A stretch of DNA of 64,000 bases from Pedobacter jejuensis. GTDB taxonomy: Bacteria > Bacteroidota > Bacteroidia > Sphingobacteriales > Sphingobacteriaceae. The notes below the pieces were generated by a model. The model saw only the letters and a program-made list of their open reading frames with translations, had not been told where the DNA came from and made no database searches. The translations under genes and the position numbers were made by a program. Where the stretch lies: the NCBI RefSeq assembly GCF_003725795.1, contig NZ_RBEE01000014.1, positions 1 to 64,000 on the forward strand. The letters run 5' to 3'. Positions within the stretch are counted from its first letter, which is position 1; each line of letters opens with the position of its first letter. Shown one piece after another: positions 3,779-63,096 of this stretch.

Positions 3779-3940
3779 ATGAGAAATACATTGATTCGTA
3801 AACAGAACATTACGCCAGAAAAGGCTATAAAAATCTTATCAGAGAGTGGCGTAAATATAGATAAAAAAGATGCCCAAGAAGTATTGGATATCATGTATTT
3901 TTTGGCTAAATTGATAGTTCGCCAAAACTTTAAAAAATGA
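3779..3940 (+). CDS. 53-residue protein coupled to serine recombinase
   Basis: A short ORF that starts at ATG 3779 with an upstream AGGA and ends with TGA at 3938-3940, overlapping the recombinase ATG (3937) in an ATGA junction. The peptide is charged and helical, with a pattern AIKILSESGVNIDKKDA followed by a hydrophobic helix ending in LAKLIV. Small proteins of this kind commonly precede recombinase genes in Bacteroidota, but I know of no proven function. The overlap suggests translational coupling; it could be a recombination directionality factor or regulator, which is inference. A longer upstream start is ruled out because ATG 3768 runs straight into a stop. Confidence 0.6.
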   Translation: MRNTLIRKQNITPEKAIKILSESGVNIDKKDAQEVLDIMYFLAKLIVRQNFKK

Positions 3941-5568
3941 AAATAGCTGATTTATACATAAGGGTAAGTACTGATGAACAAGCAGATAAAGGTTATTCAC
4001 AACGTGACCAAGCGGAACGTTTACAACGCCATTGCGATACCAATAACATCACTGTAAGAAAGATAATCTTCGAAGACCATTCTGCTAAATCATTCATCCG
4101 TCCAGCATGGAGCAAGTTCATAGTTTTATTAAAGAAACAGCGGAATAAATCTGATTTGGTTCTATTCACCAAGTGGGACAGATTTAGCCGAAATGCTCCA
4201 GATGCCTATAATATGATTAGTACCTTGAAATCATTGGGTGTTGAACCGCAGGCCATTGAACAGCCATTGGATATGGATGTGCCTGAAAATAAAATGATGC
4301 TAGCCATTTATTTGACCGCACCAGAGATCGAAAACGACAGACGGGGACTGAATACCTTTTATGGGATGAGAAGAGCAAGAAAGGAAGGCAGGTGGCCAGG
4401 GCTTGCACCAGTTGGGTACATAAACAAATGCAATGACCAGGGAAGAAAATACATTGCCCAGAATGGCAAGCAGGCTGAAATCATGCAATGGGCATTTAAT
4501 GAAATCTCCAAGGCAAAATATTCAACGCAGCAAATCTTCGACCGTTCGGTAGAAATGGGGCTTTTATGTAGCAAGAACAACTTTTTAAGATTGGTTAGAA
4601 ACCCAATTTACTGCGGGAATATCCTCATTCCCAAGTATAAGGATGAGGAGGCCTATTTTGTCAAGGGTCAACATGAGCCGATAATTTCAGAAAATTTATT
4701 TTATGAAGTTCAGGATGTGCTTAGCGGCAAGAAGAAAAGTTTCCGCACAAAGATTATGGCGGACGACAAAGTCCCTTTAAAAGGATTTATATATTGCTCA
4801 AATTGTACACGGACTTTATGTGGAAGTGCGTCCAGAGGAAGGAACGCATATTATTATTATTACCACTGTTCATCTCAATGCGGGTGTAGGCTAAAGGCTC
4901 ACGAAGTAAATAAAGAGTTTGTCACTTATCTGGATAAACTTAGTTTGAATATTAAAGCTGCTACACTTTTTAAGCGGGTCATTTTGGATGAATATGCAAT
5001 GGACAGTCAGGAGAACAGAGAGTATAAGGCACATCTGGTAAAAACACTGACCGAAGCCAATAATAAGGTAACTAGGGCAAGGGAACTGTTGCTATTGGGA
5101 GACATTAGTGGAATTGAATACCGAGATGTAAAGGCCGAGGGGGATGAAATAGCCTGCAGGATTGAGGCGAAACTGGAGGATATCAAGCACAACAAATATA
5201 CAGTTACACAGCTGGAACCGATCATTGACAAGGCAATTGTAACTTTCACAAATCTAAATGCAATCTTCTCTAAATCAGACATTAGCGAAAAAAGAAGGCT
5301 GATTGGTTCGATGTTCTCTGAAAAATTCGATTTTTTTAATCTAAAACATCGAACCGCTAAACTCACACAGAACTTCAACCGTATCTATTTGATTAACAAA
5401 GAATTAGAAGGCAAAAAAAAGGGGCAAAAGACTGTTAAAAATCTTTTGCCCCGTACGGGGTGGCTGATGGGGCTCGAACCCACGACCCTCGGCACCACAA
5501 ACCAATACTCTAACCAACTGAGCTACAACCACCGTGTTTTTTCAGAGCAACAAAAGTACGACTTTTAA
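3937..5568 (+). CDS. Large serine recombinase (island integrase)
   Basis: A site-specific recombinase with an N-terminal resolvase domain (LYIRVSTDEQ, catalytic Ser11; DRFSR at 81-85; END-R-R around 132-136), a recombinase domain from about 155, a zinc-ribbon with CSNC near residue 288 and a later Cys cluster, and a coiled coil around 370-420. It would catalyse integration and excision of the island. From about residue 495 the frame is encoded by the tRNA-His terminator and the antisense strand of the tRNA; this gives a GLEPTTL-type tail that is not a protein domain. The element probably created this extension when it inserted. The start overlaps the 53-residue ORF by 4 nt. Confidence 0.88.
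   Translation: MKIADLYIRVSTDEQADKGYSQRDQAERLQRHCDTNNITVRKIIFEDHSAKSFIRPAWSKFIVLLKKQRNKSDLVLFTKWDRFSRNAPDAYNMISTLKSLGVEPQAIEQPLDMDVPENKMMLAIYLTAPEIENDRRGLNTFYGMRRARKEGRWPGLAPVGYINKCNDQGRKYIAQNGKQAEIMQWAFNEISKAKYSTQQIFDRSVEMGLLCSKNNFLRLVRNPIYCGNILIPKYKDEEAYFVKGQHEPIISENLFYEVQDVLSGKKKSFRTKIMADDKVPLKGFIYCSNCTRTLCGSASRGRNAYYYYYHCSSQCGCRLKAHEVNKEFVTYLDKLSLNIKAATLFKRVILDEYAMDSQENREYKAHLVKTLTEANNKVTRARELLLLGDISGIEYRDVKAEGDEIACRIEAKLEDIKHNKYTVTQLEPIIDKAIVTFTNLNAIFSKSDISEKRRLIGSMFSEKFDFFNLKHRTAKLTQNFNRIYLINKELEGKKKGQKTVKNLLPRTGWLMGLEPTTLGTTNQYSNQLSYNHRVFSEQQKYDF
5421..5452 (-). terminator. Rho-independent terminator of tRNA-His
   Basis: A perfect 11-bp stem (5421-5431 with 5442-5452, arms GGGGCAAAAGA and its complement) with a 10-nt loop. 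On the minus strand it is followed by a run of eight T. It lies directly after the 3' end of tRNA-His and inside the recombinase frame. Confidence 0.85.
5459..5533 (-). tRNA. tRNA-His (anticodon GTG)
   Basis: On the minus strand the sequence folds as a 75-nt cloverleaf: acceptor pairs G1-C72 onward plus the additional G-1:C73 pair that is diagnostic of tRNA-His, D arm GCTC/GAGT, anticodon loop TTGTGGT with anticodon GTG, and T loop TTCGAAC. CCA is not encoded; the genome reads CCG after C73, so the tail must be added enzymatically. The 3' end faces the recombinase and the island, consistent with use as an integration target. Confidence 0.93.
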
Positions 5569-61474: not shown

Positions 61475-63022
61475 TTATTTAAGCAGTTTTAATAAAACTC
61501 CATTTGTCCACCCGAAACCATCTTGAAGAGGATATTCTCCGCCACCACCAATACTGTTCGGATTAACCACATCATATTTTTCCATCAACTTACCCGTTTG
61601 CTTAAAAACAGCGATATTTCGATTAACCCATCTATCCGTAATTGTTTGCGCTAATTTCCTGTAACCATAATTATTTAATCCATCAATGCTAACCCATTGC
61701 AAAGGCGCCCAGGCATTAGGCGAATCCCACTGTTCGCCAGTGGTTTTTAATGTAGTTGTCAATCCTCCTGATTTTAGAAATTTGGCTTCGAGTTTTGAAG
61801 CAACCAACTTTGCCTGAGCAAGGTTTGCGATTTTAAAATACAATGGAAACATTGCAGCAAGCGTTTCCTGTTTAGAAAAACTTTGGCTCTTCCAATTGTA
61901 ATCGGTAAAGAAATTTAAATCCTTATTCCAGAAATATTTAAGAATAGCAGCTTTGCGGTTTTTGGCCTTCGTAAGGAACAAATTTGCCTTCTTTACATCT
62001 CCAGATTGCTGATTCGCCATTGCTATTACACTCTCCAGATTAAACATCAAAGTATTTAAATCAACCGGCAACAAATCTGTCGTAATGATTTGGCTGTAGC
62101 TTTTTCCATCAGCAAACCATCTGCTACTAAAATCCCAACCAGATTCTGCTGCAGAACGCACATTACGCAAAAAGGCATCAGGCGCTTGTTTGGTTTTTTT
62201 CGAAGCCTCAAAATCTTCTTTGTACGATTCTTCCCTTGGCCAATTGCCTGCATCATAGTACCTGTTTAATACTACTCCATCTTGTAATTTAACAACATGG
62301 TTTATTGCTTTATTCTTCTGTAGGTTTTCAGCACCTTTCATCCAAAAATTATATTCAAGTTCTAGCACATCTTTATAATCACTAAGCTTTATTTTAGCAT
62401 CACTTTTTGCTAACAACTGAACCATCAAAGAAAAAAATGGAGGTTGCGAACGTGTTAAATAATAGCTTCTGTTACCATTGGGAATAAAACCATATTTACG
62501 GATAAGAAATGCGAAATTATCAATCATATCTTTAATTACCTGCGTTTTACCAGCCTTTTGTAAACCCAGCATGGTGAAGTAAGAATCCCAATACTAAATT
62601 TCCCTAAACCTCCCTCCCGGAACAATGTATGGTTTAGGCAATGGCAATAAAGAAGTTGTGATGGAAGAAATTGTATCAGGATTTCTTTTGAGCACTTGCC
62701 AAAGTGTATCCAAATGTTTTTTTATTCCGGCATTAATGTCTGATTGATAAGCCGCAGTATGGCTTTCTGGTAAGCTAAAATACTTATTTACAAATACCTT
62801 TAAATCAAAGTCACTCTTATCTTTTTCCGATAAATAAGTATCTATAATCGTTGCAGGTTTTTGTTTTGGTATGGCATCAGCAAAAGATTTACTGTCAGGA
62901 TAAATACCTGATAACTGAACTTTTTCAAACAAACCCGGGTAGGTTAACCTCGGACTAAGCTCGTGTTGAGCAAAAAGATGGCAAGAAATAAATAATAAGC
63001 CAAGTAAAAATATTCTTCTCAT
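61475..63022 (-). pseudogene. treA: Trehalase (GH37) interrupted by an in-frame TAG
   Basis: The frame is 516 codons, the usual length for a periplasmic GH37 trehalase, and has a signal peptide (MRRIFLLGLLFISCHLFAQ). One TAG at 62594-62596 interrupts it within signature 1, PGGRFREI-stop-YWDSYF; the stop sits where the signature has a Tyr. Downstream, the second signature QWDSPNAWAPLQW, the acid Asp in ESGWDFSSRW and the base Glu in GGGGEYPLQDGFGW are intact, and both halves are in one frame. A recent nonsense change or a sequencing error would explain it; stop read-through is possible but unsupported. The downstream half could restart at ATG 62572. Confidence 0.85.
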
Positions 63023-63096
63023 AATAATAACATTGTTATGAAAGATATGCAATTCTATTCAAATTTATTCTAGCTTTAAATAAACCAAATATCCCT

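Follow-up and report, generated by a model that had tools for sequence, protein, structure and literature searches.

The only full-length GH37 trehalase gene of this Pedobacter carries a single in-frame TAG in place of a signature tyrosine codon, and with a probability of about 0.72 we attribute it to a real and recent single-base nonsense mutation. The gene lies near the end of the window, by which we mean the whole stretch of 64,000 nucleotides that was analysed (the first part of contig 14, C14 below), and our best reading is that a dispensable enzyme has here become a nonsense pseudogene of young age. That the TAG base is real is inferred. The comparison with related genomes, the other premature stops in the same genome, and the decoding machinery that the genome encodes are presented in turn.

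Interrupted trehalase frame

Translation of the minus strand from 63022 to 61475 gave a frame that counts 516 codons up to and including its TAA terminator. A single stop interrupts it, the TAG of codon 143, which stands between PGGRFREI and YWDSYF (Table 1). The original prediction was of a full-length trehalase whose two halves share one frame and are separated by one TAG inside the signature motif, and this was borne out both by the translation and by a profile search of the genome, in which the frame read through the TAG matched Pfam Trehalase PF01204 with 484.7 bits (E 3.8e-145, model positions 2-509), a score that makes the trehalase identity more than a matter of chance. The cut-off of PF01204 was exceeded by the full frame and by each piece separately, with 400.1 bits for the C-terminal 365 amino acids alone (model positions 138-509) and 41.2 bits for the N-terminal 142 amino acids alone (model positions 2-129). 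Nowhere else in the 4.80 Mb genome did PF01204 match over its full length, the second match being a rhamnosidase-like protein on contig C23 with 23.5 bits. Read by eye from the sequence, the start of the N-terminal remnant suggests a signal peptide, and an alternative TTG start at 63052 gives a remnant of 152 amino acids. The ATG of codon 151, from which translation could restart, is located eight codons 3' of the TAG.

Table 1. Positions of the trehalase features and of the premature stops resolved in the genome scan (positions in the window, or contig:position where a contig is named)
Feature	Position	Strand	Description
GH37 periplasmic trehalase (TreA-like) frame	61475..63022	-	516 codons, terminator counted; a single internal TAG disrupts it
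Internal TAG, codon 143	62594..62596	-	Tyr position of signature 1 (PGGRFREI[Y]YWD)
N-terminal remnant, 142 aa from ATG at 63022	62597..63022	-	signal-peptide-like start (MRRIFLLGLLFISCHLFAQ) and first part of trehalase domain
C-terminal open frame, ATG codon 151, 365 aa	61475..62572	-	both catalytic residues and signature 2; without secretion signal and without signature 1
Catalytic acid Asp, codon 297 (E. coli Asp312 equivalent)	62132..62134	-	alignment to 2jf4; intact
Catalytic base Glu, codon 481 (E. coli Glu496 equivalent)	61580..61582	-	alignment to 2jf4; intact
Scan stop, TAG for Q	C23:200942		Q in 5/7 relatives, Y in 2; nearest relative Q
Scan stop, TAG for E	C23:256200		E in 4/6 relatives, I in 1, Y in 1; nearest relative E
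Scan stop, TGA for G	C4:55870		G in 17/17 relatives
Scan stop, TAG for E	C12:51337		E in 1/1 relative

Catalytic residues and similarity to solved trehalases

An alignment with chain 2jf4, the periplasmic trehalase of E. coli, located the catalytic Asp and Glu; its residue numbers were taken to differ from the chain index by 30, according to our own count. Both residues are kept, and signature 2, QWDSPNAWAP, is also intact from codon 431 onward, in agreement with the earlier expectation that the remaining catalytic motifs would be undamaged. Asp312 and Glu496 are given as the catalytic pair of trehalase in PMC7658089, and the Glu469 printed for the catalytic base in PMC7411730 would seem to be a slip for Glu496. 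The signature 1 motif, PGGRFxExY, is described in PMC9450901, and it was not found here in one uninterrupted protein, its Tyr codon being TAG.

The two trehalase pieces separately match the solved trehalases 5z66 and 2jf4, and do so collinearly. In family, in the catalytic Asp and Glu, and in signature 2, the encoded protein resembles E. coli GH37 TreA/Tre37A (PDB 2jf4, 2jg0, 2jjb, 2wyn) as well as the periplasmic trehalase 5z66/5z6h, while it differs from E. coli TreA in that the frame is stopped at the position which corresponds, in the alignment to 2jf4 and by our own numbering, to Tyr157.

The stop codon position in related genomes

To the site of codon 143, all 20 full-length relatives (L003-L022) contribute either Tyr or Phe, with 16 TAT, 1 TAC and 3 TTT codons. 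In a second set, which comprised 80 loci of the genome collection and overlapped partly with the first, Tyr or Phe was found in 79 of the 80 loci (TAT 58, TAC 16, TTC 3, TTT 1, and L139 with Tyr in a variant motif), the other locus, L155, being one whose site the motif pattern did not read; the tallies leave out further genomes with a DNA match, such as G102, G107, G116, G119, G121 and G127. No stop was thus detected at this site in the relatives whose site was read (20/20 and 79/80), and the claim that the stop had replaced the signature Tyr held against these homologues. An apparent single TAA inside the trehalase of relative G003 was considered as a second internal stop and rejected, as it is the terminator of that gene.

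The nearest other trehalase copy in a DNA search of 148 genomes, our own included, was that of Pedobacter mendelii with 79% DNA identity, and among the best 80 of 107 loci the top named match was likewise P. mendelii CCM 8939 (86% for the C-terminal part), with other Pedobacter ranking next. The P. mendelii trehalase (L079) shares 83.5% amino acid identity over 526 positions with the protein described here and is located between the same flanking genes in the same order; unlike the present gene, it is intact, with TAT at the site. Between about 32 kb and 68 kb, contig 14 and P. mendelii C3 are collinear, the flanking genes are whole, and no other interrupted orthologue was detected. In positions 1-32000 of the window, no open reading frame matched P. 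mendelii C3:80001-180000, which places a break of synteny near 32 kb.

By our own count, the GH37 gene was found in 19 of 59 same-genus relatives, one of which has it divided between two contigs, and the remaining same-genus relatives gave no match better than 8.1e-15, so that the gene is dispensable in the genus.

Selection on the trehalase gene

In comparison to the P. mendelii copy, the trehalase showed a dN of 0.102 and a dS of 1.66, the latter near saturation, for a ratio of 0.062. On a tree built with FastTree, 14 private amino acid changes were counted here in comparison to 21 in the intact copy of P. mendelii (p 0.31), and the 95% upper bound for the rate ratio was 1.37. Private changes at otherwise invariant columns of 23 aligned copies numbered 1 here and 0 to 4 in the others. 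Among the single-outgroup rate tests, 1 of 21 was nominally uneven, with P. mendelii as the faster lineage (L015, 13 versus 28). Neither the dN/dS ratio nor the count of private changes therefore gave any sign of relaxed selection, and by our estimate there is room for no more than about eight additional changes over 1,244 nonsynonymous sites, which under neutrality would amount to less than some 1% of the branch.

Because the protein has changed no faster than that of P. mendelii, the stop is either recent or an error, which is what the original prediction had proposed; the kept frame and motifs, purifying selection in both halves, and a stop shared with no relative that was read all fit this proposal. 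The lack of decay beyond the stop is expected of a very recent stop, and also of an error or of a stop that is efficiently read through. A sequencing or assembly error, in which case the isolate would keep its Tyr codon here and make a normal trehalase, is unlikely though it deserves some weight, as it would agree with the undetectable relaxation of selection, with a change of a single base in a draft of 45 contigs, and with the lack of any independent copy of the species to set beside it: no second copy was found among the 148 genomes or among the best 80 of 107 loci, the latter a set in which records of this or a very near genome may be missing. The quality of the assembly, rated 100% complete with a contamination of 0.08, speaks against an error, as do the premature stops found in other genes.

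Premature stops elsewhere in the genome

When 159 kb of contig 14 was compared with 300 kb of P. mendelii at an identity of at least 60%, 39 orthologues were obtained, two of which are interrupted here, the trehalase gene and a TPR-histidine kinase gene, whereas none of the 39 is broken in P. mendelii; the reverse comparison thus argues against error, although the difference (2/39 versus 0/39) is not significant. The kinase gene (C14:79045-81372, L075/L076), 15 kb downstream of the window, contains two in-frame stops 123 bases apart, a TAG at 80830-80832 and a TAA at 80707-80709, both at codons for Tyr in P. mendelii, and shows no indels over 776 codons. In four more distant homologues, the two sites are occupied by Y/Y in three cases and by F/N in one.

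A scan for stops based on coding potential was applied to C14 (159,093 b), C23 (675,542 b), C12 (435,248 b) and C4:1-80000, which together cover 1,349,883 of 4,795,808 bases, or 28% of the genome. Two earlier versions, limited to C14 and C23:1-400000, returned 8 and 14 candidates, and the final version on all four returned 137, many of which were taken for noise or true gene borders; the picks were made by eye and do not form an exhaustive set. The stop of the trehalase fell below the thresholds of all versions, and C23:256200 was present in earlier versions and absent from the final list. Nine picks were examined, and 4 of the 9 were resolved against relatives (Table 1), which together with the kinase gene makes five genes besides the trehalase. 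We take the gene at C23:200942 to be rhamnosidase-like, that at C23:256200 DUF2071-like, and that at C4:55870 methyltransferase-like.

The other picks were less clear. The site of a TAA at C4:27231, in what is presumably an ABC ATPase-like gene, is occupied by T or V in distant homologues and by H, T or N in paralogues, and for the TGA at C14:136020 the search of relatives returned no homologue. C23:67733 and C23:277 are further picks with candidate stops, and the candidate at C12:195742 we assume to be a true gene border.

The first three resolved stops, in the trehalase and twice in the kinase, all fell at Tyr, which raised the idea that stops are tolerated only at Tyr through suppression by tRNA-Tyr. 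This idea was rejected, since the seven resolved stops in six genes of the 28% sample replace Y, Y, Y, Q, E, G and E according to the commonest residue in relatives. These picks, which were made by eye and are not a full count, suggest ordinary nonsense mutation in six genes with no special decoding rule. As a check for a mutator, mutS was looked for and found present and intact. If errors were to account for all seven stops that homologues support in the 1.35 Mb, including the two in the kinase gene, they would have to occur at about 1e-4 per base, by our own estimate with roughly 5% of coding substitutions taken as nonsense, and such a rate of about 1 in 10,000 makes a real mutation likelier than an error.

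Bacterial genomes commonly contain pseudogenes; in Salmonella Typhimurium LT2, 90 of 4,711 genes (1.91%) are pseudogenes according to PMC11078800. The present gene is similar to the bacterial nonsense pseudogenes described there in that a dispensable gene, conserved in other respects, is cut short by a stop, with more such genes in the same genome, and is unlike them in being very young, with no further decay detectable.

Decoding of UAG

Readthrough to a useful extent, for instance by tRNA-Tyr misreading UAG, would yield a little full-length wild-type enzyme, and we regard this as improbable. The residue lost is the one that tRNA-Tyr would restore, the rest of the trehalase is under purifying selection, and the Tyr sites of the first three stops pointed the same way, yet the other stops of the genome, at Gln, Glu, Gly and Glu, are at odds with a Tyr-only tolerance, and the stop is found in no relative that was read. 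No CTA or TTA anticodon was found among the 47 named tRNAs of 48 hits, in a search that scored 150 of 501 first-look candidates and could miss a very odd suppressor tRNA; the single tRNA-Tyr has the anticodon GTA. RF1 (prfA) is intact, and TAG serves as a normal terminator, ending 6 of the 27 listed genes between 32 and 64 kb. Taken together, the lack of a matching tRNA, the intact release factor and the normal use of TAG make a full-length product unlikely. A low-level readthrough by a near-cognate tRNA-Tyr, restoring the wild-type residue and keeping a trickle of active periplasmic trehalase, is very improbable; if it were true, Tyr-to-UAG changes would have milder effects in this organism than nonsense changes of other kinds.

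Several irregular tRNA-like elements were observed. The one unnamed hit, at C23:387517-387578 (L074/L159), is a partial tRNA-family match of 35.3 bits (model 5-66) with no ARAGORN call. A tandem array at C41:18121-18663 (L062) contains six tRNA-like repeats called tRNA-Lys by ARAGORN, with low Rfam scores, a different anticodon arm from that of the adjacent tRNA-Val genes and, as seen by eye, terminator-like hairpins between them; these were considered as suppressors and rejected, as the neighbouring tRNA-Val appears to be the origin of the repeats. Within the window, a 543-aa open frame at 3937-5568 (+) overlaps a tRNA-His gene at 5457-5532 (-), so that the end of the frame merits attention.

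Probable consequences for trehalose utilization

With the TAG as a true stop, translation would end after 142 residues and give a secreted stub without the catalytic residues, and ribosomes restarting at codon 151 would make a product of 365 residues that lacks both a secretion signal and signature 1. Since the stub would be secreted and the restart product has no signal, the pieces would be found in different compartments and no working enzyme would be formed. That the gene functions nevertheless as two pieces, or in a shortened form started from the ATG just past the stop, is extremely improbable: the C-terminal part keeps both catalytic residues, while the secretion signal, as judged by eye, is on the N-terminal and not the C-terminal piece, signature 1 is split between the two, and the arrangement occurs in no relative that was read. 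No published broken bacterial GH37 gene of this kind was found in titles and abstract openings, mostly outside subscription journals.

Other genes related to trehalose are present. At C4:46019-49706, a bifunctional trehalose-phosphate synthase/phosphatase (C4:46019) has as a near neighbour a GH15 protein (C4:48609) that contains a TREH_N domain and whose best NCBIfam match is the archaeal trehalase TreH1 with 326.8 bits in comparison to a cut-off of 820, so that a trehalase activity is only possible. This locus may represent a trehalose cycle that does not depend on the broken GH37 gene. The genome also encodes two GH65 proteins, one of which scored above the cut-off for kojibiose hydrolase.

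Under the preferred reading of a recent nonsense mutation, the cell has most likely lost periplasmic trehalose hydrolysis by the GH37 enzyme, as far as can be judged from the genome. The trehalase gene should thus be flagged as disrupted and predictions of growth on trehalose for this strain corrected accordingly. If the TAG base is real, the gene would represent a dispensable secreted glycosidase caught just after its inactivation.
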